The position numbers and the translations under genes are program-made. Positions 51,491 through 63,700 of a stretch of 64,000 nucleotides of DNA are shown piece after piece. The notes beneath the pieces were generated by a model. That model saw only the letters and a list, made by a program, of their open reading frames with translations, was not told the origin of the DNA and made no database searches. Each line of letters opens with the position of its first letter. Position 1 is the stretch's first letter. The stretch is from Lactiplantibacillus songbeiensis (GTDB lineage: Bacteria > Bacillota > Bacilli > Lactobacillales > Lactobacillaceae): the NCBI RefSeq assembly GCF_005405125.1, contig NZ_BJDL01000024.1:1-64000 (forward strand). The letters run 5' to 3'.

Positions 51491-51610
51491 AAAATGTTAA
51501 GAAATAAGACGTGAACATTTAGTGAAGTGGCTTTAAACAACTTAAATTATCAGATTTAGCAAGATTCATTATTAAAACGGTTGAAATGAGGTCATTGGGG
51601 TGATTGAAAC

Positions 51611-51664
51611 AACAAAAAAAGCTTTAACAAACACCGTCATAACGGTCTTTATCAAAGCTTTTTA
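51611..51664. terminator. Terminator downstream of tRNA-Glu
   Basis: AAAAAGCTTT and AAAGCTTTTT form the outer stem and ACCGT/ACGGT an inner one. It lies just beyond the tRNA gene on the minus strand. Confidence 0.8.
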
Positions 51665-51685
51665 AGTTCCCAAAATTTATCAGTA

Positions 51686-51758
51686 TCGCCCGCACGGGGA
51701 TCGAACCCGTAACTCCGCCTTGAGAGGGCGACGTCTTAACCAATTTGACCAGCGGGCA
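51686..51758 (-). tRNA. tRNA-Glu (anticodon CUC)
   Basis: The 73-base cloverleaf reads from TGCCCGC on the minus strand: D arm GTCAAATTGGTTAAGAC, anticodon stem TCGCC/GGCGG with loop CTCTCAA (anticodon CTC), variable AGTTA, and T arm with TTCGATC. The pattern is that of Firmicute tRNA-Glu. CCA is not encoded. The first acceptor pair is U1-G72 instead of G-C, which is unusual. It lies after the small membrane protein gene on the same strand. Confidence 0.9.
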
Positions 51759-51803
51759 AATTCAAATACCATCTTACCGAAAGATAGGACGCTTGTCAAT
51801 CGT

Positions 51804-52010
51804 TCATTTAGAATGCAGACGCATAATAGTGACGACACATAGGGCGATAAATAGAAATAGGCAATAGATAACACTACACCAAAAGACAAAGGTCAGCAGT
51901 TGCGGCAACAAAAAAGTCCGCATAACGGCAAGGCCAACTGCGGTAACGGCCCAGACGATTAATTGTTGTCGCAAGTGGTTGAACCACCGCGTTAATTCAT
52001 TTTGAGTCAT
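51804..52010 (-). CDS. Small membrane protein, 68 residues
   Basis: Two adjacent hydrophobic segments (IVWAVTAVGLAVMRTFLLPQLLTFVFW and CLFLFIALCVVTIM) follow a short polar start MTQNELTRWFNHLRQQ. AGGAAG lies nine bases before the ATG. It is located between tRNA-Glu and the island's tRNA-Gln insertion site. No family recognised; function unknown. Confidence 0.7.
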   Translation of the reverse strand: MTQNELTRWFNHLRQQLIVWAVTAVGLAVMRTFLLPQLLTFVFWCSVIYCLFLFIALCVVTIMRLHSK

Positions 52011-52125
52011 GATTCGTCACTTCCTCATAACTGTAGTTTGACGGTCTTAGCGACAAAATTCAAGTAATTTTCTGGTAATCCTTGACATGATTTCATCTTA
52101 AAGTTAAGATTGAATAGTTGTTTAT

Positions 52126-52198
52126 TGGGTATTCGCCAAATTGGTAAGGCAGCGGACTCTGAATCCGTAATTTACTGGTTCGAGCCCAGTATACCCAA
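52126..52198 (+). tRNA. tRNA-Gln (anticodon CUG), island integration site
   Basis: The 73-base cloverleaf has acceptor TGGGTAT/ATACCCA, anticodon loop CTCTGAA (CTG), and T arm ACTGG TTCGAGC CCAGT. CCA is not encoded. The 3' part of the gene is duplicated at 62101-62123 at the other end of the island, and the integrase gene starts its minus-strand end 155 bases away, so this is attL inside a regenerated tRNA. Confidence 0.95.
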
Positions 52199-52199
52199 T
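52177..52199. other. attL
   Basis: GGTTCGAGCCCAGTATACCC plus AAT, within tRNA-Gln. It matches attR at 21 of 23 positions, with the last 15 bases (CCCAGTATACCCAAT) identical. Confidence 0.9.
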
Positions 52200-52285
52200 T
52201 TTATAGTTTTCTAAGTCGTCAATGAGGTGCCTAATACCTCGTATGACGGCTTTTTTATTTCTTTAAAATTCAACAGCGTGTACCG

Positions 52286-52317
52286 TGGTGCAAACTTTTT
52301 GCACCATTTTTGCACCA
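52286..52317. other. Integrase arm-type sites, left end
   Basis: TGGTGCAAA at 52286 (inverted), and TTTGCACCA at 52298 and 52309. The same 9-mer occurs twice near the right end (62015 and 62027). Their position between att and the integrase gene at one end and beside attR at the other fits binding sites for the integrase N-terminal domain. Confidence 0.7.
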
Positions 52318-52352
52318 CGGGAACGTTAAAAGCTGGAATGTTACAAAAACAG

Positions 52353-53498
52353 TTAGATACTCATGAATTGGTCTAATTTCTCTGCAACATCGGCTTTCTG
52401 CTGCTTAGTAACGTGCAAGTAGACTTGTTGGGTAATATTAAGATTAGCGTGCCCCAGCATTTTAGACACAGCCACCAATTCAGCACCACCAGCAAACGCC
52501 AGCGAGCAAAATGTATGCCGGAAAGCATGTATCTTAATACGTCGCAGGCCGTACGCCTTGCAGATACTCCGATTCCAATGGTCAGGAACACTTGGCTGTA
52601 ATAATTGATTGTACTCGTTCGAAAAAACGAGTTGCTTAGCACCGTGAACGTTATAGCCTTGCTCAAGATAAAAAGTAGCTTGGCTCACTTTCCACTTTCG
52701 TAACCAGTGCATCGTTTTCTTATCAACCACAATCGTTCTACGGCTAGTCTTAGTTTTAGGCGTTTGGATGAGTAAGCGACCGTCCTTACCTTTGGATTCA
52801 GTCCGGCTAATGCTGATCTCATTAGTATCAAAGTTTAGATCAGACCAACGGAGTGCTAGTGCTTCGCCTTTCCGCATGCCAGTGTATGACAGTAGTCGAA
52901 AGAAAGTAAATGGCTCCATATCATCATACAAGTAGGCACTATTAAGGAACTTAGTTAATTCGGCCTTTTCGTAGAAGTCGAACGCCGGTGCATCGTCTAT
53001 ATCTTTCCGCTTAGGTATGCTAGTTTTAGCCATCGGATTGCGTGAGATTAGTTCCATACGGATACCATAATCAAAAACCGTACTGGCGGAGCTTCTAAAA
53101 CGGCGATAATGCTTAAAACCAGCCTTAAACCAGTCGTGAACGACTTTCTGACACTGTGGTACTGTTAGTCTCTTAATCTTTTTGGAACCCAATACGGGGA
53201 TAATATGGAGCCTAAAAATATCCTCTGTCTTTGCCCACGTTGATTCTTTCACACCTTGCTTATAATCCTCGAACCAACGATTATATAGTTCTTCAAAAGT
53301 AACATCATTAGTTGCTACGAATCCTTGTTTATCAAGGCTAACTTGTAAATTGGAAGTCCATAATTGGGCTTCCTTTTTCGTTTTAAAGCCTCGTTTGTGC
53401 ATCCGTTTATAGTTACCGTCATCATCCTTACCAGCCATTGAGAAAGCCTCCCAACGAGCCAGACCGGACTTAGTTTTATACTGATTAATTGTTGCCAT
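52353..53498 (-). CDS. Tyrosine recombinase (island integrase)
   Basis: The 381-residue protein has an N-terminal AP2-like arm-binding domain (about 1-60; KTKSGLARWEAFSMAGKDDDG), a SAM-like core-binding domain (about 64-165) and the catalytic domain. Visible catalytic residues are Arg 209 (TGMRKGE), Lys around 248-250 (PKTKTSRRTI), His 324/Arg 327 (HAFRHTF), His 350 (MLGHANLN) and nucleophile Tyr 360 (VYLHVT). All required residues are present. AAGGAAC precedes the ATG. It is located next to attL with its 3' end toward the att site. It is expected to integrate and, with an excisionase, excise the island. Confidence 0.95.
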   Translation of the reverse strand: MATINQYKTKSGLARWEAFSMAGKDDDGNYKRMHKRGFKTKKEAQLWTSNLQVSLDKQGFVATNDVTFEELYNRWFEDYKQGVKESTWAKTEDIFRLHIIPVLGSKKIKRLTVPQCQKVVHDWFKAGFKHYRRFRSSASTVFDYGIRMELISRNPMAKTSIPKRKDIDDAPAFDFYEKAELTKFLNSAYLYDDMEPFTFFRLLSYTGMRKGEALALRWSDLNFDTNEISISRTESKGKDGRLLIQTPKTKTSRRTIVVDKKTMHWLRKWKVSQATFYLEQGYNVHGAKQLVFSNEYNQLLQPSVPDHWNRSICKAYGLRRIKIHAFRHTFCSLAFAGGAELVAVSKMLGHANLNITQQVYLHVTKQQKADVAEKLDQFMSI

Positions 53499-53554
53499 GA
53501 TTGATTGTTCCTTTCATACCGGCCGGCGAGCATGATATGTAGGAAAATTACAAT

Positions 53555-54211
53555 CTATTTGATAAAAGCCAGTTTCTTTGTATCTAATTTTTTTGAATAA
53601 TCCCCCCAAGGAAGTCGTACAAGCACAGATACTTCATTTGGTTTTAAGCTCAATAGATAATCATTTACAGACTTACGTTTTTGTTGATTATTAAAATCTG
53701 CATCCCTTGTGATATAGGTATACTTCTGTAATGCATCAGAAATTTTAGTCAATATTGTATTGGTTACTTCGTTTTTAAATACTACAGGTAGCTCGTTAAA
53801 GATACCTATGAGTTCGTTATCCTTAGAATTTTCTTCTTCTATATCAACGTATAAGTCAAAAGTATCTAGCGGCGCCGATTCATCGAACCAGCGGCTGTCA
53901 ACAATAAATACAAGTTGTAGTTGATACATTTGTTCCGTTCTTCCTTTCGATACATCAAATAGGATCATCTTTTCATCATCATACGATTCTGCAAAACCTA
54001 GTCGGAATTTATAAGGACTGAAAGAAAAGAAATCGGATGGGGTAACTTCGAGATAACGACATAAAGTATCAATGGTTTCTGTTGAAATATTGGCATTAAT
54101 ATTATTAGTGATATTTGAAATAGTATTGCGTGAAATTTTTGTCTCGTCAACGACCTGCTTAATAGTAAGTTGCCTTTCAGCTAGTAAGACGCTAAGTCTA
54201 TTTGCTAACAT
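53555..54211 (-). CDS. Repressor-like helix-turn-helix protein of the island
   Basis: The 218-residue protein has an N-terminal Xre-type helix-turn-helix (LSVLLAERQLTIKQVVDETKISRNTISNI, about 6-34; RYLEVTPSDFF closes the domain at about 60). The C-terminal 150 residues are unlike LexA/CI peptidase domains and contain no Ser/Lys pair that I can see. It is divergent from the Cro-like gene at 54359, the position of the Stl master repressor in satellites. Stl-type proteins are relieved by binding a helper-phage protein rather than by RecA, which would fit the lack of a peptidase domain. This is inference. AGGAGG precedes the ATG. Confidence 0.8.
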   Translation of the reverse strand: MLANRLSVLLAERQLTIKQVVDETKISRNTISNITNNINANISTETIDTLCRYLEVTPSDFFSFSPYKFRLGFAESYDDEKMILFDVSKGRTEQMYQLQLVFIVDSRWFDESAPLDTFDLYVDIEEENSKDNELIGIFNELPVVFKNEVTNTILTKISDALQKYTYITRDADFNNQQKRKSVNDYLLSLKPNEVSVLVRLPWGDYSKKLDTKKLAFIK

Positions 54212-54259
54212 ATAAAATCCTCCTTGATAAATCTGCAGTAATTATATCATTTATCAATT

Positions 54260-54358
54260 ACATTGTGTGTTTAAACATTGAAATAGTTGTACATCCGTGT
54301 TAATCTATATTTGCTCTTGATAATATGAAAGTGCAAATACACATTGTGAGGTGCAAAT
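54260..54358. promoter_or_regulatory. Divergent control region of the island
   Basis: This is the switch region between the repressor and Cro-like genes. GTGCAAATA occurs twice (about 54332 and 54351), and CATTGTG occurs near 54264 and 54343. These short direct repeats are candidate operators for the two helix-turn-helix proteins. Confidence 0.5.
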
Positions 54359-54568
54359 ATGAATAATTTATCAATCATTTTAGGAGAGCGACTTTTAACA
54401 ATTGGCTATGTATCGGAAGAAACGGGCTTGAGTCGTGGCACAATTTCTACTATTTATCACCGCAAGGCTGATTCAGTCCGACTGGATACGTTAAAGAAAA
54501 TTTGTGATTGTTTACAGATTTCGCTAAGTGAACTTATTGAATACACGCCACAAGCGCCAGACAAGTAA
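54359..54568 (+). CDS. Cro-like helix-turn-helix protein
   Basis: The 69-residue protein is essentially one Xre domain: ILGERLLTIGYVSEETGLSRGTISTIYHRKADSVRLDTLKKICDCLQISLSELIEY. It is the first gene of the rightward operon, opposite the repressor, in the Cro/Str position. GTGAGG precedes the ATG. It probably competes with the repressor at the divergent promoter to allow expression of the replication genes. Confidence 0.85.
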   Translation: MNNLSIILGERLLTIGYVSEETGLSRGTISTIYHRKADSVRLDTLKKICDCLQISLSELIEYTPQAPDK

Positions 54569-54580
54569 AGAGGCACGCCG

Positions 54581-55264
54581 ATGGACTTAGTAGTGTTAAC
54601 GTCACAGCGATTAGATGCCGAGCCGTTTACCAGTAGCGACATCATCGCTGAAAATATTGGAATTAAACGCAATTCAATTAAACAAACTATTCAAAATCAC
54701 ATTGCCAGATTAGAACACTTTGGAAAGGTTCCGTTGATAGTGGAACCTTTACCGAGCGGTCAGAGTACTACTTACTATCGTTTGAACGAACAACAGGCGA
54801 TGATGCTGTTTTTCTATTTGAACAACACACCACAGGTTGAGGACTTTCAAGAGCGACTTGTTAAGCAATTCGCCTCAATGAAACAAGCTCTAATTGAACG
54901 GCGGGCTAAGTTTGAGCTAGGCAAGGAATTCTCAAAAGGATTGCAGAGCGCCATTGCAGACAGCCCCGCCCTTGATGAGCATCATCATCTTTATGCCAAC
55001 ATCAACAAGCTTGTCTATAAGAATGCGTTAGGCGTCAACGTGAACGAATTGCGGCGGGCTCGGAGTATTCCTAAGACGGATGCGATTACCAGCTATCTAA
55101 GTGCTGACGAGGCGGACGCCGTGAGGAAAGTTAAGAGCCAGATCACTAATCTGCTTGAAATGAAGATGGACTACCAGCAGATTAAGCAAGCTCTCGCAAT
55201 TCAAGGTGTGATTTATCGCATCCGATTGACCCTACCCGCTAATGCCGTCACTCCTACCAATTAA
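54581..55264 (+). CDS. Rha-like phage regulatory protein
   Basis: The 227-residue protein has an N-terminal domain (LTSQRLDAEPFTSSDIIAENIGIKRNSIKQTIQNHIARLEHFGKV) that resembles the pRha domain: a strand, winged-helix-like segment and the later YRLNEQQAMMLFFYLNNTPQV block. The C-terminal part (about 125-227) is helical and unassigned. Rha proteins are phage-borne regulators or antirepressors. It lies 12 bases after the Cro-like gene in the rightward operon. Moderate certainty for family, low for precise role. Confidence 0.7.
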   Translation: MDLVVLTSQRLDAEPFTSSDIIAENIGIKRNSIKQTIQNHIARLEHFGKVPLIVEPLPSGQSTTYYRLNEQQAMMLFFYLNNTPQVEDFQERLVKQFASMKQALIERRAKFELGKEFSKGLQSAIADSPALDEHHHLYANINKLVYKNALGVNVNELRRARSIPKTDAITSYLSADEADAVRKVKSQITNLLEMKMDYQQIKQALAIQGVIYRIRLTLPANAVTPTN

Positions 55265-55278
55265 GGAGGTGAAATATC

Positions 55279-55569
55279 ATGAGTGAACAGCTACAAGTAA
55301 TCTTACCGGACAAACAGGCCAAGTCATTGCAGAGTTTCGTTTACAATCTGGTCTCTGATTCAGTCGAGACTGCCAAGCGTGATGCTGGTGTTAGTCAGAA
55401 ATGGCTTAGAAAAGGACAAGCAGCCAAGTATTGCGGCGTGAGCTCTAACACGTTTAGTTCTTGGATCAAGGAAGACGGACTACCCGCCCACGTCATTCAC
55501 GGCACGACTTTATTTAACAAGCGCGATCTTGACGCATTTATCTTACACAATGGATCAATAACAAACTAA
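55279..55569 (+). CDS. Excisionase/AlpA-like DNA-binding protein
   Basis: The 96-residue protein has a C-terminal MerR-like winged helix (WLRKGQAAKYCGVSSNTFSSWIKEDGLPAHVIHGTTLFNKRDLDAFIL, about 46-92), the HTH_17 layout used by excisionases and AlpA activators. The N-terminus is helical. AAGGAGG lies eight bases before the ATG. Its place in the early operon of the island suggests a role in excision with the integrase, or in activating the downstream replication genes. Confidence 0.8.
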   Translation: MSEQLQVILPDKQAKSLQSFVYNLVSDSVETAKRDAGVSQKWLRKGQAAKYCGVSSNTFSSWIKEDGLPAHVIHGTTLFNKRDLDAFILHNGSITN

Positions 55570-55635
55570 AATCCGGCTGGCGAGCGGTGTTTGATGATTG
55601 CAACTAATTGGCTTACTGATAATGGAGGCGCACTG

Positions 55636-55938
55636 ATGAGTGTAATTGGTTTTGATGGCGATAAGTTGAACAAGATGTGTGAGGTTCAATCCAAGTTATC
55701 CGAGCAGACGGCTAAAGTAGCTGGCTCAATAGCTGGAATTGAGGTACAACGTGATTTTGTTGAGGAACGGCGGCGCAAGTTGTCACAACTAGTATCGGAT
55801 GATGATTTGCTAGCGACCGAGTTTGATTCTTTCCTATCGTTATTCGATAAGGAACTAAACGAACAGATACAGCAGCTAACAAAGGCATCCGCTGCCATGA
55901 AGAGCGCTAAGACGTTCCTTAATGATTTACTACGGTGA
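55636..55938 (+). CDS. Hypothetical coiled-coil island protein, 100 residues
   Basis: The start MSVIGFDGDKLNKMCEVQSKLSEQT is chosen because TGGAGG lies seven bases before the ATG at 55636; the frame open to 55591 has none. The protein is almost entirely helical with heptad-like spacing (QRDFVEERRRKLSQLV, then LFDKELNEQIQQLTKASAAM). No family recognised. Part of the rightward operon. Confidence 0.7.
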   Translation: MSVIGFDGDKLNKMCEVQSKLSEQTAKVAGSIAGIEVQRDFVEERRRKLSQLVSDDDLLATEFDSFLSLFDKELNEQIQQLTKASAAMKSAKTFLNDLLR

Positions 55939-55967
55939 TATAGGAGTATTGGCCATGATTGAGGGTA

Positions 55968-56080
55968 CAAAAAAATCCGTGCTTTACTTTGGCGAGTAGC
56001 ACGGACTTGGATCGGTTTATCTGAACGGATGAACCTTTTAAGTTGCCCTCATTATATCAAGAAATGAGGAAAAAAGACAA
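55968..56080 (-). ncRNA. Candidate small RNA, antisense to the island operon
   Basis: On the minus strand TTGTCT (56075-56080), 18 bases and TATAAT (56051-56056) form a near-consensus promoter. About 77 bases downstream an intrinsic terminator ends the unit: stem AGCACGGA/TCCGTGCT with seven T residues (55968-56005). Between them is a second hairpin, GGTTCATC/GATAAACC (one mismatch). No open frame is present on that strand. Promoter, two stems and terminator with nothing to terminate otherwise make a short RNA likely. The interval includes the promoter; the transcript should be about 56044 to 55968. Confidence 0.6.
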
Positions 56081-56373
56081 TGGATTTATTAGATGATGCA
56101 CAAGGAGAACTAGCCCAAGTTGATTATATGTTATATGCAGCCGTTGAAATGGTTAACGAGTTACAGAACGTTGCCAACGAGTACCACCACGACAACACAA
56201 CGGCCTTAGAGGTAACTAGCGAGCTTACCCGCATGATTGACTCAATCGCAGGGCTAGGCTGGATGTTACAGGACAAGACGGCCGCAATCGAGAAGATGCT
56301 AGAAAGCATTGAGCAACAACAGATTGATGAGAAATTACCGAAGTTCCACGGTGGTAAACTACGGGAGGCATAA
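56080..56373 (+). CDS. Hypothetical island protein, 97 residues
   Basis: The acidic, fully helical protein runs MDLLDDAQGELAQVDYMLYA to EQQQIDEKLPKFHGGKLREA. GAGG lies ten bases before the ATG, within the antisense RNA promoter. It ends two bases before the primase gene. Comparable short acidic proteins precede the primase in many lactobacillus prophages and satellites; the role is not known. Confidence 0.75.
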   Translation: MDLLDDAQGELAQVDYMLYAAVEMVNELQNVANEYHHDNTTALEVTSELTRMIDSIAGLGWMLQDKTAAIEKMLESIEQQQIDEKLPKFHGGKLREA

Positions 56374-56375
56374 GC

Positions 56376-57146
56376 ATGGATACTAAAGAACGCGCGTTAA
56401 AACTGGCTGGCGCTGGTATTTCAATCTTCCCGCTTGCTTCCAATAGTAAGGCACCATTTAAAGGCAGTCGGGGTTATCTGGATGCCACTACTGATTTACA
56501 GACTATTGGCGGCTGGTTTGAACACGTCCCGAGACTAAACCTAGGGATGCGATTAGATACGGCCGGCTTATTAGTAGTTGATGTAGATAGGCATGGGCAA
56601 ACTGACGGCGTGGCTACGCTTAGAAGGCTCAATCAAGAAGGCAAGCGATTGCCGGGAGATACCTATATTGAACGGACGCCCAATGACGGACTGCATTACT
56701 TTTTTAAGTTGACGGATCCGTTAAGCGTCCGCCGCCGAACTAATCTATATCCGGCCGTTGATGTATTGCATGATTTTGTAATGATTGCACCGAGCCAGAT
56801 AGACGACCATTACTATCAAGCTGTTGATCCGAGCAACTCGATTAGACCGGCGCCACAGTGGTTAATTCGTGACCTGTTGCCCAGTCAAAGGATGAACGAG
56901 GCACCAGAACGTGCCTCTAACATCCACAAGACTTGGACGGGACGGGTACTAGATGAACTAGTAGCTGGTACGAGTGAGGGCAATCGCAATAGTTTTCTAA
57001 CGTCGCTGTTGGGCAAAATCTTTAATACAGGGTGTCAGAGTGTTACGGCCTATGAGTTATTGCAATATGCCAACAGCCAACTAAAGCCACCGTTGCCAGA
57101 TAAAGAGGTTAACACAATTTTTAGATCAATTATTAAGCGTGTTTAG
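56376..57146 (+). CDS. Prim-pol type DNA primase/polymerase
   Basis: The 256-residue protein opens with the bifunctional primase-polymerase N-terminal fold (ALKLAGAGISIFPLASNSKAP), has the catalytic acidic pair in LLVVDVDRHG (Asp 69 and 71) and the nucleotide contact ERTPNDGLHYFFK. It ends with a PriCT-1-like helical domain (SEGNRNSFLTSLLGKIFNTG). It primes replication of the island together with the helicase encoded 11 bases downstream. In satellites this pri-rep pair is characteristic. All key residues seem present. Confidence 0.88.
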   Translation: MDTKERALKLAGAGISIFPLASNSKAPFKGSRGYLDATTDLQTIGGWFEHVPRLNLGMRLDTAGLLVVDVDRHGQTDGVATLRRLNQEGKRLPGDTYIERTPNDGLHYFFKLTDPLSVRRRTNLYPAVDVLHDFVMIAPSQIDDHYYQAVDPSNSIRPAPQWLIRDLLPSQRMNEAPERASNIHKTWTGRVLDELVAGTSEGNRNSFLTSLLGKIFNTGCQSVTAYELLQYANSQLKPPLPDKEVNTIFRSIIKRV

Positions 57147-57157
57147 GAGGTGAGAGT

Positions 57158-58585
57158 GTGGCGCAGGATAGTGATATTAAAGCAGCGATGCAGCAGCGTG
57201 ATAAACGTATTAATAATGTAACGCCGATTAAGGGCGCTGAATGGCAAGAAAGTTTGAGGAAAACCGATAGCGGAGGCATTAAACGAGGGTCATTGTTTAA
57301 CATCCGATTGTATATTGAAAACGACCCTAATTTAAAAGGTGTACTAGCCTATGATGAGTTTTCAGAGAAGGTTGTGAAGCTAAAATCTAATAAGGTTACC
57401 GGGTTGCTGAAAGGCGACTGGCAAGACACGGACGACTCTCTGTTAAGAGCCTACTTTGATGAACGATACAATTTACTTTTTTCAAAAGATAACGTGTTTG
57501 ATGCAATGATACGTGTTGCTAGGCTAAATCCGGTTGATCCAGTTAAAAATCGCATCGAATCTGCAAAGTGGGATGGACATCCCCGAGCAGAAAGCTTTTT
57601 TATTGATTACCTAGGAGCAGAGGATAATCACTATACACGAATGGTTACACGTAAATGGTTAGCTGGTGCAGTAACCAGAGTTTACCGACCGGGGATTAAG
57701 TTTGAAATTATTCCCATGTTAGATGGTGGTCAAGGGCTAGGTAAAAGTACCACAGTTAAAAATTTGTATCCTGATTATTTCAATGACAGTCTAAAGACGA
57801 TGGGAAAACAGAAAGACGACTATCAAAAGTTAACGGGGAGCTGGATCATAGAATTGGCCGAGTTATCAGCCATGCAAAAGACTGATATTGAGACGATGAA
57901 AAACTTTACTAGTGCAACATCCGATTACTACCGGAATAGCTACGGGCGTTATGCTACCCAGCATCCCCGAAAGAGTGTTTTTATTGGTTCGACTAATCAA
58001 CATGACTTTTTAAAAGATATAACCGGGGAGCGGCGATTTTATCCGATTCGGTGCGGTATTAATCCGGCAACAAAGAACCCTCTAAAGTCTGATAAAAACG
58101 ATATTTTGCAGACTTTGGCAGAAGTTAAAGTGTGGGTTGATGCTGGTGAAAAGCTTTATTTTGATCAGCAGACTATTAGGGAAGCTAAGCCATATCAGCA
58201 AGAAGCTCAAGTAATTGATCCGATGAAAGATGCAATTGCTGATTACCTTGAAATGTTAGTGCCGACTAACTGGGAAAAACTAACAACAAGCGTTAAGCAT
58301 TCGTATTTTACTACCATTAATAATGGTGGAGTAATAGAGCCTAATGCTGACAATTGGTTAAATGCAAAGTTAGACCACGATCGGGAACTAATCAAGCAAA
58401 CAACGACCCTTGAAATATTGGCAGTCGTTTTTGACCGGCAAGCAGAAAAGTATCTAGCCGGGCGAACTAATGGCGACGCTAAGAAAATTAAGCTAATCAT
58501 GGATAATATGCAGGGATGGCAGTATAAGACCAATATTGTGATTAATGGTAAACGTGGTCGAGGCTATCAGCGTATTAACAATTAA
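57158..58585 (+). CDS. VapE-like replication helicase (Rep)
   Basis: The 475-residue protein belongs to the virulence-associated-E/superfamily 3-like group. Walker A is DGGQGLGKSTTVKNL (about 189-203), Walker B-like WIIELAELSAMQ and sensor SVFIGSTNQHDFLKDITGERRFYPI follow. The C-terminal about 120 residues would hold the origin-binding function in SaPI-type Rep proteins. The start is GTG behind AGGAGG. It follows the primase, and an iteron-type origin begins 20 bases after its stop. It very likely initiates island replication there. Confidence 0.88.
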   Translation: MAQDSDIKAAMQQRDKRINNVTPIKGAEWQESLRKTDSGGIKRGSLFNIRLYIENDPNLKGVLAYDEFSEKVVKLKSNKVTGLLKGDWQDTDDSLLRAYFDERYNLLFSKDNVFDAMIRVARLNPVDPVKNRIESAKWDGHPRAESFFIDYLGAEDNHYTRMVTRKWLAGAVTRVYRPGIKFEIIPMLDGGQGLGKSTTVKNLYPDYFNDSLKTMGKQKDDYQKLTGSWIIELAELSAMQKTDIETMKNFTSATSDYYRNSYGRYATQHPRKSVFIGSTNQHDFLKDITGERRFYPIRCGINPATKNPLKSDKNDILQTLAEVKVWVDAGEKLYFDQQTIREAKPYQQEAQVIDPMKDAIADYLEMLVPTNWEKLTTSVKHSYFTTINNGGVIEPNADNWLNAKLDHDRELIKQTTTLEILAVVFDRQAEKYLAGRTNGDAKKIKLIMDNMQGWQYKTNIVINGKRGRGYQRINN

Positions 58586-58605
58586 TACTAACTCTTTATT
58601 AAACT

Positions 58606-58793
58606 ACCTGTGTATAGTGTGTAACCTGTGTAAAGGTTGATATATAAGGATTTGTAAAAAGAGGGACGTGTGTATAACCCGTGTAAACCTGTGTGAAAAT
58701 CGATTACACACGTTAGAACGCTATAAACACGGGTATATGTGTGGCGAAACGCTGTTATATCAACGTTTTACACACCTACACAGGTACACGGGT
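58606..58793. other. Iteron-type replication origin of the island
   Basis: ACCYGTGTA-type iterons occur at 58606, 58624, 58677 and 58687 on the plus strand (the last ends in G). In reverse orientation they occur at 58726 (AACACGGGT), 58777 (TACACAGGT) and 58785 (TACACGGGT). AT-rich sequence lies between them (for example TTGATATATAAGGATTTG at 58637). Two opposing iteron sets directly after rep is the design described for SaPI origins. Confidence 0.8.
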
Positions 58794-58835
58794 ATAACGT
58801 GCAACAAAGAGTAAAAAAACTAGGAGGGCAATAAT

Positions 58836-59219
58836 ATGCCGTTATCAATGATTGAATATCAAATTATGACGATGATACCGAGAGGAGCTGCTAACCCGAT
58901 AACTGTGGGTGATCTAAAACGATTGACCCAGATAGATAAGCGAGCCATTAGAGAGATTATCAGCGACTTAATCCGATTGCATGGCGTTCCCATTGTGGCA
59001 ATGCGCTACGGCAAGCGAGGGATGTTTATTGCTACGAATGACGATGAACGCAGTATTGGGATTGCCAGTTATAAGAGTCAAATTGCATCGATGCAGGGAC
59101 GTGCGAGCGCTATAGAGTCAGCAGACCTAAATGGCTGGGAGCTGGCGTTAAGACCTGAAATCAAGCGTCTAACTGGAAAACTAAAACAAGAGGTGGGCAA
59201 TCATGACACTGCAAGCTAG
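58836..59219 (+). CDS. Island protein with winged-helix-like N-terminus, 127 residues
   Basis: Residues 5-65 (IEYQIMTMIPRGAANPITVGDLKRLTQIDKRAIREIISDLIRLHGVPIVAMRYGKRGMFIA) have the look of a winged helix seen in phage replication or regulation proteins; the rest is helical. AGGAGGG lies eight bases before the ATG. It overlaps the next gene by 17 bases. It sits just after the origin. Its function is not established. Confidence 0.7.
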   Translation: MPLSMIEYQIMTMIPRGAANPITVGDLKRLTQIDKRAIREIISDLIRLHGVPIVAMRYGKRGMFIATNDDERSIGIASYKSQIASMQGRASAIESADLNGWELALRPEIKRLTGKLKQEVGNHDTAS

Positions 59220-59583
59220 CTTAAAGAGATATAGGCGCTTAGTTGCTAAGACGATGCGAGCAAACGAGAGAATAAGCCACCGTACTGATAAGATTGAGAG
59301 TCTTTTAGACCGACTGGATGAGTATTTACTGAATAATGATGCCGCCCGTGATCAATATTACAGTGAACGAAGTATTTCACTATTCGTTATTGTTCAATTG
59401 CAATCACTCCGTATCGATGGAACGATTACCAGAGTTAGAGTCATGACTAAATGGAGCCGACTACGAATGCACGCCGCTAACCGTCAAGCCAGACGCATTG
59501 TATTAATGCTAGATAAGATACAACGCAAGTACCCTGATGAGTTTAGCGAGGCTGATAAGCAGTACACGGCCAGCCTACTGTAA
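59203..59583 (+). CDS. Hypothetical island protein, 126 residues
   Basis: The strongly basic helical protein (SLKRYRRLVAKTMRANERISHRTDKIESLLDRL..., TKWSRLRMHAANRQARRIVLMLDKIQRKYP) overlaps the upstream gene, so translation is coupled. No family recognised. It is the last plausible protein gene before a 2.1-kb noncoding tract. A terminator-like hairpin follows at 59650-59683. Confidence 0.65.
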   Translation: MTLQASLKRYRRLVAKTMRANERISHRTDKIESLLDRLDEYLLNNDAARDQYYSERSISLFVIVQLQSLRIDGTITRVRVMTKWSRLRMHAANRQARRIVLMLDKIQRKYPDEFSEADKQYTASLL

Positions 59584-59649
59584 CTAATAGGCCTGAAATC
59601 CTAGGCTAATCAGATTGACCATGAACACTATTTCCTCCCGCCAATTAAG

Positions 59650-59683
59650 CCACTCATGCCGTCATGGTATCGAGTGGTTTTTA
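59650..59683 (+). terminator. Terminator of the island's rightward operon
   Basis: AAGCCACTC and GAGTGGTTTTT form the outer stem, with an inner ATGCCGTCAT palindrome-like segment, about 65 bases after the last stop codon. Confidence 0.7.
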
Positions 59684-59751
59684 TAATTCTGCCAAAAGTG
59701 GCAGAAACATGCACTAGGTGAACAATATTCACGTACTTAATCGATTAATGT

Positions 59752-60240
59752 AAACAGGTTGTTTTGATTAACCTGTTTTAGCCTGATTGATTCCATTACA
59801 TGCAACTTATCATTTAAAAGGATGTGTTTTAAGCATAATCAGTGGGCTAGCAATCTTTACCCATTATCGGGGAAAACTACACGAATGAGTGATAGCTAAC
59901 TGGAGCATAGCCATAGTTACGCCCTAAGTTAAACTTAGGGGGCATCCGAGGGGTAACGATTCGTTCCTCCCTATTATGAAATCCGCTATCGTTCAAAACG
60001 ATGCAGTATAGGTCAGCGCCGTGTTTCCGCACTTATGCGGAAGTCGTTAGAAAGCGAGTCAATCAGATTGACCGACCTAGTCGTTTATGAAAAAAACTAG
60101 GGGGTGTCAATTTAACACCTCCCTAGTTCACGAGGTTAGTATGCCTAACTTCGTTCTTAGTTAACGGGGGACGTGATTCGCGACTCCCTATTTGTTAGAC
60201 CTATTTTAGTCTGACTCGTTAATTTACCGAGTCAGTTCAT
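59752..60240. repeat. Run of distinct perfect hairpins, noncoding
   Basis: Successive inverted repeats with unrelated sequences: AAACAGGTT/AACCTGTTT (59753), CCCTAAGTT/AACTTAGGG (59922), ATCGTT/AACGAT (59988), TTCCGC/GCGGAA (60025), GTCAATC/GATTGAC (60058), AACTAGGGGGTGT/ACACCTCCCTAGTT (60095, one unpaired base), GTTAG/CTAAC within CGA/TCG (60131), and GACTCG/CGAGTC (60213). No frame has a ribosome binding site. The tract may be a structured RNA, a replication or packaging site, or decayed DNA. Confidence 0.7.
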
Positions 60241-60299
60241 CCGTTATGAAGTAGTCTAAAAATATTAACTCGTAATCGGAGCGATAAATGAGATTTTAT

Positions 60300-60396
60300 G
60301 GGTGCAACCTTACTGCAACCTTTTTGGAAAAAGGTTGCACCTATAATTGCTGATGCAGACGTATTAGAAACGTTGAAATGTTAGCGATTGTTAGCC
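60300..60396. repeat. Hairpin plus paired-word array, module 1
   Basis: A hairpin GGTGCAACC/GGTTGCACC (60301-60341) is followed by paired words GTATTAGAA/ACGTTGAA and ATGTTAGCGAT/TGTTAGCC (60361-60396). A homologous hairpin-array module recurs at 60840-60985. Confidence 0.7.
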
Positions 60397-60413
60397 TTAT
60401 TTTGACGCGTGAC

Positions 60414-60456
60414 ACCCTTAGAAAACCTAAGATAAATGTTAGGGTTTGCGAGGGTG
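60414..60456. repeat. Paired-word array, module 2
   Basis: ACCCTTAGAA then AACCTAAGATAAA starting at 60414 and 60424, and TGTTAGGGTTT then GCGAGGGTG starting at 60437 and 60448. Unit spacing is 23 bases with half-unit offsets +10 and +11. Confidence 0.65.
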
Positions 60457-60580
60457 CACGGCGATACAATAAGCTTTTAGGACGCAATCCGTACGCATTC
60501 TCATTCGATTTTGTGTGCACCCTTTTTGAGTTTTGTGTGCGCACAAAAGCGGCCGGCACTATCACGTTTCAATCGTTGGC

Positions 60581-60670
60581 ATGCTAAGAAATACTAAGAT
60601 AAAATGATGGCTAATGATGGCGTAAAATGCTCGGAAATGCTCGGATAAAATACTAGGTTTTACTAGGGTG
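60581..60670. repeat. Paired-word array, module 3 (23-bp period)
   Basis: Units begin at 60581, 60604, 60627 and 60650. Each holds one word twice: ATGCTAAGAA/ATACTAAGATAAA, ATGATGGCTA/ATGATGGCGTAAA, ATGCTCGGAA/ATGCTCGGATAAA, ATACTAGGTTT/TACTAGGGTG. Flanking letters are constant while the word changes from unit to unit in both halves. It is not a CRISPR array and not coding in any supported frame. Confidence 0.8.
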
Positions 60671-60764
60671 TTGGCTCGTTTCAGACTGGCAATCGTAAGC
60701 TAATTTGATGCAACGTGTTGCCACTTTTGGCAACGGTTGCCACAGTCAAGAATGCACCCATAGA

Positions 60765-60807
60765 ATGCTTGCAAATGCTTGCATAAAATGCTGGCGTTTG
60801 CTAGCCC
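60765..60807. repeat. Paired-word array, module 4
   Basis: ATGCTTGCAA/ATGCTTGCATAAA from 60765 and ATGCTGGCGTT/TGCTAGCCC from 60788, again 23 bases apart. A TTGCCACTTTTGGCAA hairpin lies just upstream (60709-60734). Confidence 0.7.
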
Positions 60808-60839
60808 TTTTAATCACTCCATCATTGATTTATGGGCGA

Positions 60840-60985
60840 TTATGGGTGCAATTCTACTGCATCCTTTTTTATTTTTGTGTGCAAAAAAGTTGCACCTATA
60901 AATGCCGGTTTTATAGTATTCCTTAATTTTTAGATGCTGGTAAATGCTGGTATTTGTTGGAGTAAATGTTAAGTTTTGTTAAGGT
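60840..60985. repeat. Hairpin plus paired-word array, module 5
   Basis: The hairpin arms GGGTGCAA (60843) and TTGCACC (60890) flank a segment matching module 1 (TACTGCATCC versus TACTGCAACC; TTGCACCTATAAATGC versus TTGCACCTATAATTGC). Words ATGCTGGTAA (60934), ATGCTGGTAT (60944), TTGTTGGAGTAA (60954), ATGTTAAGTTT (60966) and TGTTAAGGT (60977) follow. Confidence 0.7.
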
Positions 60986-61560
60986 CATTTCAAGGCCTTG
61001 TGCCTATGCCACACTAATTGGTTTCGAACAGAAAAGTACGAAGCAGGAGCGACCTACTAGCTATACACATTAATAGACGTTTTTATGAGATTTGCTCAAC
61101 AATGAGCTGAACCACTTATGTAACTTAGACTTCCACGCCCTAAGTTAAACTTAGGGGAGTAACCGATCCGTACACTGATTTGATGTATTATCATATCTGG
61201 TAATGAGACATTATAGACCCCCTAAAGTGATTGATTACTGATGATTTAATGTTAGTCAAATCGATTGAACTTTTAACTGAACCGCTATTTACTACCTAGT
61301 TACTAACGACCTACTGCTAATTGACTAATTGTGAGTCGATAAGTTCGACTCGCAATATCCGTTCTGGCTAAAAGACACAGCGAACAAGAAACAGCCTACC
61401 TTGTGTACGGTGACATAGGTGACACCCTAAAGTGATTGACGCCAACAATCCAATACCAGTTTAATCAGGCGGTTTTTAACTGGGTCGATATTTTCTACCT
61501 AGTTGTGGAGCTACTCTACAAGGCTTATTCAAGCTCAACAATAAGTCAAAATAAGCTAAA
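60986..61560. other. Noncoding tract between the arrays and the toxin locus
   Basis: It contains a second copy of the palindrome CCCTAAGTTAAACTTAGGG (61138-61156), followed like the first by a related AGTAACCGATCCGT-type sequence. Other features are a hairpin GTGAGTCGA/TCGACTCGC near 61330-61353 and two copies of CCTAAAGTGATTGA (about 61220 and 61426). No gene is supported; short open frames here have no ribosome binding site. Confidence 0.5.
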
Positions 61561-61565
61561 TCATG

Positions 61566-61594
61566 TTGCATTGCTGGTGTCAGTGCTGGATAAT
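61566..61594 (+). promoter_or_regulatory. Promoter of the type I toxin mRNA
   Basis: TTGCAT, 17 bases, GATAAT, about 50 bases before the toxin start. Confidence 0.6.
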
Positions 61595-61633
61595 AAACAA
61601 GTTGCCTACCTACACTGTGTGTAACGGTGGGGA

Positions 61634-61663
61634 GGTGATCACATTGTTGCAGTATTTTTTCGC
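61634..61663 (+). repeat. Direct repeat a (DRa) of the type I toxin locus
   Basis: A 30-base repeat spanning the toxin translation start. It matches DRb at 61817-61846 at 24 of 30 positions. In Fst-type loci the antisense RNA made from DRb pairs with DRa and blocks translation. Confidence 0.8.
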
Positions 61664-61730
61664 CCCGCTTGCGGTTGGCATATTAATTGCCTTGTTTACG
61701 GACTGGTTAGACCGTAGACGCCACAAGTAA
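61644..61730 (+). CDS. Fst/Lpt-family type I toxin
   Basis: The 28-residue peptide MLQYFFAPLAVGILIALF-TDWLDRRRHK has a hydrophobic membrane helix with a conserved Pro near the start (FFAPLAVG) and the charged tail WLDRRRHK typical of Fst, Lpt and related toxins. GGGGAGGTG precedes the TTG start; an upstream in-frame GTG at 61635 is too close to it. Such peptides insert in the membrane and affect nucleoid and cell division when the antisense RNA is lost. It is located near attR, where it would stabilise the island by post-segregational killing. Confidence 0.85.
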   Translation: MLQYFFAPLAVGILIALFTDWLDRRRHK

Positions 61731-61775
61731 AACAGATTAGGCAACAATCTAACCCACCCGTTTATTACATAAGCG

Positions 61776-61846
61776 TAAAAAAAGCCCCTCAACTACTCCA
61801 CATAGTTGGGGGACTTGGTGTTCACATTGAAACAATATTTCTTCGC
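61776..61846 (-). ncRNA. Antitoxin RNA of the Fst/Lpt type I locus
   Basis: On the minus strand an extended -10 (TGGTATAAT, 61853-61861) starts a transcript at about 61846. It runs through DRb (61817-61846) and ends at the hairpin CCCCCAACTA/TAGTTGAGGGG with a seven-base T run (61776-61812). The hairpin is shared, in the opposite sense, by the toxin mRNA. Convergent transcripts with DRa/DRb and a common terminator reproduce the par_pAD1 layout. The RNA is about 71 bases. Confidence 0.8.
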
Positions 61847-61867
61847 ACTGACATTATACCATCTTCG

Positions 61868-61882
61868 TACACGATTCGTGTA
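61868..61882. other. Perfect palindrome upstream of the antitoxin promoter
   Basis: TACACGATTCGTGTA lies about ten bases upstream of the antitoxin extended -10 and covers the -35 position. It could bind a regulator. Sequence 61883-62014 has no gene. Confidence 0.4.
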
Positions 61883-62014
61883 TGTTTTACCGTACAAATT
61901 ATGTAATACTATCCGAGCGAATAAAAAAGCCACCCGTAATGAATGACTTTGGACGCCCGCCGGCTGATTAATTAATTACAGACATTATGTGTTTTTGGCC
62001 GTTTTTAGAGTTGA

Positions 62015-62035
62015 TTTGCACCATTATTTGCACCA
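62015..62035. other. Integrase arm-type sites, right end
   Basis: TTTGCACCA at 62015 and 62027, in the same orientation and close to the same spacing as the pair at 52298/52309 at the left end. Confidence 0.7.
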
Positions 62036-62100
62036 CGAGTATTTTTAAACACTGTAAAGTGCTTGTTAATACCGGTATAACAGCATTCTTGCTTAGGCTT

Positions 62101-62123
62101 GGTTTGAACCCAGTATACCCAAT
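62101..62123. other. attR
   Basis: GGTTTGAACCCAGTATACCC plus AAT repeats the 3' end of tRNA-Gln with two changes. It marks the right boundary of the island. Confidence 0.9.
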
Positions 62124-62127
62124 CAGT

Positions 62128-62180
62128 TAAAAAAACACTGAACGTGCATTGTTAGCGATGCGTGTTCAGTGTTTTTTTAT
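62128..62180. terminator. Terminator originally behind tRNA-Gln
   Basis: AAAAAACACTGAACG and CGTGTTCAGTGTTTTTT form a long stem right after attR, so before integration this was probably the tRNA-Gln terminator. Confidence 0.8.
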
Positions 62181-62217
62181 TGACCGCGCTTGGGGCTAGT
62201 TAAAATTACCGCCTGCC

Positions 62218-62355
62218 GGTTGGGTACTAAAACGCTGGAACGCCATGGGTCATTTTGAAGCTAAAGTCTAGTCTTCAAAACTGACCTTGGCCTAAGTTCG
62301 AGCAGACCACTCGCACCAAAGCCAACGCTACGGCTGAGCATTTTAGAAACCAACC
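62218..62355. repeat. Full-length 138-bp fold-back repeat (family R1)
   Basis: Same length and about the reverse complement of 7897-8034. The terminal repeats are GGTTGGGTACTAAAA and TTTTAGAAACCAACC. The flanks CGCCTGCC and AGCACCAAGC also occur at other copies. It lies outside the island, between its terminator and the deacylase gene. Confidence 0.85.
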
Positions 62356-62473
62356 AGCACCAAGCATATTGACCAAATTAACTAGTGCAATCGCTATCAA
62401 TTAGTTGGACTTAGTGGCATGATAGACTGTGAGTAGCAGTTTATCTAAAAAAACATGATTGAAGGGTTTTCTA

Positions 62474-63700
62474 ATGAAAGATACCGAAAAAATTAGTCTT
62501 TTAAGTCACTTAGTTGCGATGAATACAGTCAACCATAATGAAATCGAACCGGCTGAGTATTTGAAGCAGTTGTTCGATGATGCTGGCATTAAAAATGAAC
62601 TCTTGCCAGTTGGCGACGACCGGGCTAACCTGATTGCTGAAATTGGGAGTGGCTCACCAATTTTAGCGATTTCGGGGCACTTTGATGTTGTGGCGGCTGA
62701 TGCCAAGGAATGGGCGACAGATCCGTTTACCTTAACGGAAAAAGATGGGCAACTGTTTGGTCGTGGCGCTAATGATATGAAGAGTGGGTTAGCCGCGTTG
62801 ACGATTGCCATGTTGGAATTAAAAGAACAGCAAGTGCCAATTAACGGCACAATTCGGTTAATGGTGACTTTCGGTGAAGAAGTCGGTGAACTAGGTGCCA
62901 AGATGCTCTATGATGCTGGTTACATGCAAGGTGTCAACGCGTTGCTGATTGCTGAACCATCCGGCTACCGGATTTGCTATGGCCAAGCAGGAACGATTGA
63001 CATTGACTTGGAATCGATTGGCAAGAACGCCCATAGTTCGATGCCAGCATTAGGTAGTAACGCCGTGGATCATTTGATTCGTATCCTCTATACGATCAAA
63101 GCCAAAGTCATGGCTCGGGCAGCGGGACAACACAATGCCGTGTTAAATACGGATACATTGTTCAATATTGATGTTTTCAATGGTGGCGAGCAAGTCAATA
63201 CGATTCCTAATCATGCCTTGGCCAAGATTAACTTGCGGACGATTCCTGAAGTTAGCAACGCTGAAATTTTGCAGATTTTCCATGACGTGATTGATGCTGA
63301 TGCCGCCAAGTATGGTAGTCAAATCAATATGCACGTTGAGATGGACTTGAATCCGGTCGTTGGTGATCCGAAGTCTAAAATGTTACGGTTGATTCAACGG
63401 GTGGCGAAACCTTACTTGTTGAATGCTAAATTCTCTGCTAGTGATCAGCAACAAAACCAGATTGTGACGAAGATGCTTGGTCGGGAATTGCCAGCGGGTA
63501 CGATTCCGGCTTTAGGGGCTCCTGGTGGGACTGACGCACGGCGGTTATTGGTTGACCAACCATTAGGCTTTGACTACACGGTCTTTGGTCCGGGTAACTT
63601 TACCTCACATCAACCAAACGAATACGTTTCTAAGTCTATGTATCTAGACTTTATCAAGATGTACGAAGAACTCTTCCCAGCTTACTTTAACGAAGCCTAA
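62474..63700 (+). CDS. ArgE/DapE family M20 deacylase
   Basis: The 408-residue cytoplasmic metalloenzyme has the M20 metal-site motifs: ISGHFDVV (His about 70), RGANDMKSG (bridging Asp about 101), FGEEVGELG (catalytic Glu and ligand Glu, about 134-135), AEPSG and a late FTSHQPNEYV with the last His. The dimerisation domain lies between (about 180-295). The family includes succinyl-diaminopimelate desuccinylase and acetylornithine deacetylase; the ArgE/DapE branch is compatible with lysine/cell-wall precursor synthesis, not proven. GAAGGG before the ATG at 62474 is preferred over the TTG at 62459. Confidence 0.88.
   Translation: MKDTEKISLLSHLVAMNTVNHNEIEPAEYLKQLFDDAGIKNELLPVGDDRANLIAEIGSGSPILAISGHFDVVAADAKEWATDPFTLTEKDGQLFGRGANDMKSGLAALTIAMLELKEQQVPINGTIRLMVTFGEEVGELGAKMLYDAGYMQGVNALLIAEPSGYRICYGQAGTIDIDLESIGKNAHSSMPALGSNAVDHLIRILYTIKAKVMARAAGQHNAVLNTDTLFNIDVFNGGEQVNTIPNHALAKINLRTIPEVSNAEILQIFHDVIDADAAKYGSQINMHVEMDLNPVVGDPKSKMLRLIQRVAKPYLLNAKFSASDQQQNQIVTKMLGRELPAGTIPALGAPGGTDARRLLVDQPLGFDYTVFGPGNFTSHQPNEYVSKSMYLDFIKMYEELFPAYFNEA

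Follow-up and report, generated by a model that had tools for sequence, protein, structure and literature searches.

Tandem word pairs in a PICI-like island of Lactiplantibacillus songbeiensis as candidate packaging sites matched to phage small-terminase genes

The packaging signal of phage P22 lies in or at terS, the gene of the small terminase (PMC9611059), and in SPP1 the pac site, which includes direct repeats, coincides in part with the stretch encoding the DNA-binding domain (PMC6316719, PMC4737164). In TerS rings, adjacent helix-turn-helix (HTH) motifs are about one turn of B-DNA apart, and the SF6 DNA-binding domain has been reported to bind pac non-specifically (PMC4737164). A structural model for the cos phage PaP3, based on lateral interdigitation, has two adjacent HTHs contacting one site of ~20 bp (PMC7672466). 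SaPIs encode their own TerS with its own pac (PMC6687093). A 2022 review names the way in which TerS recognises DNA as a key question that is still unanswered (PMC9611059). These statements, and the comparisons drawn from them here, follow excerpts of the cited papers.

Here, we describe an array of paired short words in a window of 64,000 nucleotides (positions 1 to 64,000 of contig NZ_BJDL01000024.1) from the 3.03-Mb genome of Lactiplantibacillus songbeiensis. Each word occurs twice in direct orientation, and the same kind of pair is embedded in phage terS genes. As in P22 and SPP1/SF6, the candidate signal thus overlaps terS; it differs from those pac sites, SPP1 being compared by description, in the 10-bp offset of the pair, its concerted variation across phages and an association between TerS residues and letters of the word. 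Moreover, islands hold many different sites in tandem, outside genes. The locus resembles SaPIs and other PICIs in having an integrase, regulators, a primase-helicase and no structural genes that could be found, and it would likewise reuse helper packaging; however, SaPIs have their own TerS and pac, whereas this island has no recognisable TerS and many phage-type sites. It shares with the PaP3 model the idea of two adjacent HTHs on one site, but the evidence here is covariation and the TerS family is a different one. In the listed titles and abstract openings of the open-licence literature, we found no report of multi-specific packaging-site arrays or of a TerS residue-base code.

PICI-like satellites are characterized by a tyrosine integrase, flanking att repeats, a length of ~8-20 kb, divergent regulators, a primase/helicase module and the lack of capsid, tail and lysis genes. 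The island that contains the array is 9.9 kb long, is bounded by 15-bp direct repeats at 52185 and 62109 next to a tRNA-Gln gene, and carries an integrase, divergent regulators and a primase/helicase replication module (Table 1). Pfam and PHROGs revealed no capsid, tail or lysis gene among 10 ORFs between the att sites, a set without ORF 56080-56373 and small ORFs. By its gene content the island appears to be a PICI-like phage satellite, for which helper-induced excision and packaging are predicted. A small terminase of its own, as encoded by SaPIs, was not recognised: with TerS profile A2, the best score among 11 island proteins was 4.7 bits (E 0.011), and no TerS of the word-pair family was found in the window's own genome. 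The array occupies the right part of the island, a region without a credible gene. Directly behind vapE, which is the expected place of a SaPI-type replication origin, the short repeats ACCTGTGTA, TGTGTATAACC and TACACAGG (58606-58794) possibly mark an iteron-bearing origin. The PHROG_2113 protein of the island has a relative in viral contig L150 (5329-5688) and is perhaps a packaging helper. Outside the island, a 45-bp tandem repeat at 19461-19671 perhaps lies within a surface-protein gene.

Table 1. Features of the island and its word-pair array, in window positions.
Feature	Position	Strand	Remarks
attL	52185..52199	.	15-bp direct repeat, 3' end of tRNA-Gln(ctg); tRNA by ARAGORN
Tyrosine integrase with arm-binding domain	52353..53498	-	Pfam PF00589, PF14659, PF14657
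CI-like repressor	53555..54211	-	Pfam HTH_26; PHROG repressors
Rha-type regulator	54581..55264	+	Pfam PF09669
Prim-Pol primase	56376..57146	+	Pfam PF09250 and PF08708
VapE-like D5 helicase	57158..58585	+	Pfam PF05272
PHROG_2113 protein	58836..59219	+	function unassigned by PHROG; relative in viral contig L150
TGCAC-type box hairpin 1 (GGGTGCAACC...GGTTGCACC)	60296..60346	+	box class enriched in terS linker DNA
Pair TGTTAGC/TGTTAGC	60378..60395	+	exact; word also in terS L159, L206, L210
Imperfect pair CCCTTAG/ACCTAAG	60414..60431	+	resembles terS L184, L060, L065
Weak imperfect pair TGTTAGG/TGCGAGG	60436..60453	+	weakest of four; word TGTTAGG in terS L117
TGTGCAC / GTGCGCACA box hairpin 2	60506..60551	+	hairpin
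Imperfect pair TGCTAAG/TACTAAG	60581..60598	+	identical imperfect pair in terS (with stops) of same-genus G018; L202, L251
Pair TGATGGC/TGATGGC	60604..60621	+	exact; terS L102, L179
Pair TGCTCGG/TGCTCGG	60627..60644	+	exact; terS of same-genus genomes G015, G001
Pair TACTAGG/TACTAGG	60650..60667	+	exact; spacer TTT
Pair TGCTTGC/TGCTTGC	60765..60782	+	exact; terS L099
Imperfect pair TGCTGGC/TGCTAGC	60788..60805	+	imperfect
TGCAC-type box hairpin 3	60835..60906	+	hairpin
Pair TGCTGGT/TGCTGGT	60934..60951	+	exact; terS L209
Pair TGTTAAG/TGTTAAG	60966..60983	+	exact; spacer TTT; terS L138, L211
attR	62109..62123	.	exact copy of attL 15-bp repeat

Within 60361-60985, eight exact pairs of at least 7 nt are present at offset 10 and none at offsets 6-9, 11 and 12; the few at offsets 13, 19, 22 and 23 reflect the unit period. 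The paired words of the original prediction are confirmed, and chance does not account for them: 2000 dinucleotide shuffles of the interval gave a mean of 0.05 offset-10 pairs (maximum 2), and each of 95 other 625-nt blocks of the window contains at most one. The 23-nt period proposed there is also exact, the units of module 3 starting at 60581, 60604, 60627 and 60650. The spacing, given as 10 or 11, is corrected to 10, and the connecting letters, said to be constant, are AAA or TAA but change to TTT, GTT or GAT in the last unit of a module. With four imperfect pairs included, whose 7-nt words span 60415-60431, 60437-60453, 60582-60598 and 60789-60805, the array contains ~11 pairs; this count leaves out the exact pair TTATGGG at 60830, which coincides with a hairpin of TGCAC boxes and probably does not represent a unit.

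The interval was predicted to lack protein genes, and it does look non-coding: a TerS profile had no match in any frame of 59584-61436 (the three reported scores had E values of 0.52, 1.1 and 1.8). Rfam likewise had no match in the array; in 51500-62500 it recognised two tRNAs, plus a hit below threshold at 61771. Blastn of 60270-61010 against phage records gave no match. A hairpin RNA was rejected as an explanation, given the absence of an Rfam match and the direct rather than inverted pairs; the earlier view of a direct pair that varies in concert within a satellite, and that hairpins do not explain, is upheld.

The pairs alternate with a second signal, boxes of the TGCAC type, of which 60290-60990 contains 14, or 20 per kb; the island genes have 1.1 per kb and window positions 1-50000 have 0.9. 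The linkers of 110 terS genes contain GTGCAC 123 times, against 18.5+-4.0 expected when the same proteins are recoded, although many of these linkers are close relatives and do not make 110 independent cases. The boxes precede the word groups in the island and likewise in terS; it is our guess that the N-terminal HTH of TerS reads them. A tandem TTTTTGCACCA beside the integrase end (52296-52317) resembles these boxes.

A pattern fixing only the constant letters matched four places in 301 genomes of the family, two of them in the window, and in all four (4/4) the free triplet is the same in both copies. Blastn within the genus, with a match in 4 of 21 genomes, pointed to genes called small terminases by Pfam and PHROGs, which stand in front of large-terminase genes. 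The original prediction recognised no named element in the rule, but the terS genes of phages contain the pair as an embedded site. There, its place is fixed, at the end of the codons for an SF6-type HTH, where it covers the codons x-L-x-N-x-x. Finding the region inside an intact coding sequence had been put forward as evidence against the pattern, and in phages it does occur in one; however, the first copy is in frame and the second is shifted, so that the repeat ties amino acids together through the DNA and is still a DNA signal in terS.

A TerS profile gave 183 matches, 153 of which cover the site (123 distinct proteins, 109 distinct 36-mers). The variable triplet is identical in both copies in 62 of the 109 distinct sites, compared with 7.1+-2.4 in 20000 shuffles (maximum 19), and mean copy identity is 0.70 at offset 10 versus 0.17-0.33 at the other offsets from 5 to 19. 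When only synonymous codons were shuffled and amino acid 119 was kept fixed, the first 69 sites still exceeded expectation (37/69 observed; 21.7+-2.8 and a maximum of 33 in 5000 shuffles). Since relatives contribute to both the terS and the linker counts, the shuffle odds overstate independence. The triplet is not identical in the remaining 47/109 sites, and it is identical in one of four named phages and in 3 of 14 pattern matches on viral contigs. Among the best 30 matches of a 30-nt sequence-only profile (R1), the triplet is identical in 25 (18/20 terS-like, 7/10 other), with the mis-extracted L255, at a contig end, scored as non-identical. Identity guided the choice of sites for R1, but a profile cannot itself require it. 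The word pair is also present in the terS-like genes L244, L245, L249, L266 and L269, apparently shorter forms that match the TerS profile only from about position 79. In Latilactobacillus phage TMW 1.1447 P1, a putative HNH gene adjoins terS, a hint that this phage may package by cos and not by pac.

A profile of 69 TerS sequences matches SF6 TerS (3zqp, E 3e-10) and its DNA-binding domain (4zc3, E 6.5e-7). The predicted monomer of the TerS protein L106 consists of an N-terminal HTH, a disordered linker and an SF6-type domain (mean pLDDT 74.8, pTM 0.36). Foldseek with this model had 3zqq as its best match (E 0.002) and none below 0.001; the SF6 domain 2cmp superimposes on it with an rmsd of 1.9 and a target TM of 0.81, though with an E value of 1.8. 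By alignment with SF6, helix 110-121 of the model is the predicted recognition helix. L106 numbering equals that of L008 plus 6, and residues 108, 110 and 112 below are in L008 numbering.

In 78 pairs of closely related TerS, differences per position amount to 0.27-0.54 in the stretch 101-125, and of the remaining positions only 171-175 (0.46) and 56-60 (0.27) approach this level. Relatives such as L169, L170 and L172 differ in their word pairs, although the sequence flanking the stretch is nearly the same in them on either side. With overall similarity controlled, word similarity in 65 rows was related to residues 102-113 (partial r 0.24-0.27) and to residues 105-109 (0.30-0.35; p 0.002, the floor of 500 permutations); linker residues 46-72 showed a weak link by one of two measures only (r 0.105, p 0.014). 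There was no link in these rows with the N-terminal HTH (0.00-0.01), the right flank (0.01-0.04) or any other segment. Reading of the words by the N-terminal HTH or according to TerL type was rejected (partial correlations of -0.04 and -0.03, 62 rows). The site hence covaries with the DNA-binding helix of TerS.

At the level of single residues and letters of the word (w8 being the last), the z scores in 105 rows were 21.7 for residue 108 with w8, 16.0 and 10.8 for residue 110 with w4 and w3, 12.9 for 112 with w7 and 10.9 for 109 with w6. The others were at most about 10 (108-w7, 9.7; 106-w4, 8.2; 93-w8, 7.9), with values of 7-8 for w8 at conserved positions, 91 and 93 among them. Letters were also predicted for held-out sequences. 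Excluding sequences at least 50% identical outside the cassette, w8 was correct in 76/88 (baseline 35), w7 in 78/97 (55), w4 in 75/96 (55) and w3 in 79/96 (63), while residue 109 gave no gain for w6 (69/101, baseline 68) and w5 likewise showed none. Under a stricter rule, which also excluded sequences at least 45% identical inside the cassette, residue 108 predicted w8 in 71/83 (baseline 25), residue 112 predicted w7 in 72/89 (47), and residue 110 predicted w4 in 70/91 (54) and w3 in 73/91 (59); w6 was again without gain (62 versus a baseline of 68). In the matrix of this stricter test, w8 is well predicted by residue 108 only, and w3 and w4 are best predicted by residue 110. Because prediction survives the exclusion of similar cassettes, linkage of whole cassettes is not the explanation.

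Known HTH contacts pair Arg with G and Asn with A, both on the other strand, and Glu with C. The associations fit these contacts: at residue 108, R (15/15), H (7/7) and K (5/7) go with letter C and N goes with T (15/16), and at residue 110, E goes with C (17/19). Taken as a whole, the association looks like a residue-base code by which TerS would read its packaging site, and the predicted recognition of the word pairs by TerS is strongly supported by the covariation.

Similar arrays are present in other islands. R1 was searched in 301 genomes, a noisy search at E <= 1 (268 genomes with a match), and ten regions among the matches listed were read. Eight of them (L273-L280) contain clusters of at least three pairs with different words, and L271 and L272, both of G104, contain no such cluster. 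Together with L043, found by the constant-letter pattern, and viral contig L150, there are at least ten loci besides the window; L198 (G245), with three pairs, all imperfect, is outside this count. Five of the ten have an integrase (L274, L276, L277, L278, L279) and L274, L276 and L278 have a D5- or VapE-type helicase; L275 has five units at exact 23-nt steps, and its three scanned proteins are not satellite genes. Unit orientation is mixed in L043, L274, L276 and L150. SIR2-domain proteins, both of 529 aa, are encoded near arrays in two genera (L043, 7407-8996; L280, 11597-13186) and are possibly defence cargo of packaged islands.

Exact matches among 41 terS words exist for 32 of the 51 array words with identical triplets, compared with a background of 6.1% of 20092 7-mers; at least three of the 51 words come from one place that was read on both strands. 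Identical triplets are found in 51/76 cases inside arrays and 14/234 outside, a biased comparison because the intervals were chosen after the pairs had been seen; the best-30 R1 count and the constant-letter pattern are less biased. The original prediction had asked whether words turn over in pairs between related islands. They do so in L274 and L276, of another genus, whose arrays are 92% identical over 510 aligned positions, with units gained or lost and one pair changed from G to A in both copies, but the window's nearest relatives offer no comparison: no array follows vapE in the three closest sister islands, whose VapE proteins are 82-86% identical. There, G008 has no pair and G009 and G010 have scattered pairs; in G010, a small cluster of 10-bp repeats lies on the opposite flank of vapE (L187, 11648-11700). 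Among 13 other islands, no pair was present over 3.5 kb behind vapE in G008, G010b, G273 and G255, and G280 was readable for 618 nt only. This shows that the arrays are not general among VapE islands.

We consider it probable, at roughly 0.8, that the array consists of TerS-binding packaging sites that imitate the sites of numerous different helpers. Computed directly are the word pairs and their concerted variation, the association of TerS residues with letters, the word matches between array and terS, and the similar arrays in other islands. Against this reading stand the 47/109 non-identical terS sites, three of four named phages without an identical triplet, the reported non-specific binding of pac by the SF6 domain (PMC4737164), the lack of gain for residue 109 and w6, the weak link to linker residues 46-72, the z scores of positions 91 and 93 with w8, the possible cos packaging of TMW 1.1447 P1, the nearest sisters without an array and the window's own genome, in which no TerS of this family was found. 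Alternatively, the array might be a decoy that soaks up helper TerS and blocks helper packaging instead of packaging the island. The mixed orientation in four arrays makes such a role possible, and the concentration of numerous sites with differing specificities and the SIR2-domain genes near two arrays agree with it; a pure decoy is unlikely, though, given that packaging has to start somewhere in a satellite that lacks TerS, and no other candidate for this was noticed. The two roles are mutually compatible, and a packaging role rather than a decoy is what we infer.

Iterons of a replication origin, bound by the island's own replication protein, are very improbable. Plasmid iterons have a tandem period of about 22-23 bp, similar to the 23 nt found here, and the Prim-Pol and VapE genes would suit an origin, but iterons carry one word in all units, whereas each unit of the array has its own, and these words match phage terS genes; moreover, separate short repeats already occupy the expected origin place behind vapE. 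Neutral concerted evolution, by strand slippage or template switching over 10 bp without any reader, would be helped by the ability of tandem 10-bp repeats to slip and by the different words of close relatives. We regard it as having very little chance of being correct, in that the pair persists within coding genes in two frames, the constant letters flanking the words persist and particular helix residues predict letters; the copying mechanism rewriting both halves that was once envisaged is not needed, though conceivable. Finally, two short stretches of the array read like a terS linker (KKVAPIIADADVLETLKC; KKVAPINAGFI), as a decayed terS gene left by a prophage might, yet the TerS profile has no match in any frame and ~11 pairs with different words are present rather than one; this origin is hardly credible.

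Under the packaging-site reading, the site would be a direct pair of ~8-nt words, 10 bp apart, within terS and next to the stretch that encodes the recognition helix. Each copy would be contacted, on one face of the DNA, by one of two adjacent DNA-binding heads in the TerS ring, so that both copies would change together when the recognition helix changes. The original suggestion of a dimeric protein on one DNA face is supported in this broader form, recognition by an oligomeric protein being the best reading, in line with the excerpted description of TerS-ring HTHs about one turn apart (PMC4737164). The satellite, which has no recognisable TerS and bears ~11 pairs of different words together with TGCAC-type boxes, could then be bound at its array by the terminases of several helpers, which would start packaging it into their capsids. 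That TerS contacts the words directly, that packaging results and that each word serves one helper specificity are our inferences.

We lean slightly towards the view that lock and key form one hypervariable cassette of ~45 bp, in which the recognition-helix codons adjoin the word pair, so that a single step could alter or transfer specificity without loss of the match. Phages would diversify this cassette, possibly escaping parasites, and satellites would collect the locks of many phages in tandem arrays and thereby gain many possible helpers. The covariation defines a short site and a residue-letter code specific enough to be tested, and it suggests a route by which a satellite without TerS may use many helpers; the helper range of such an island would become readable from its DNA.
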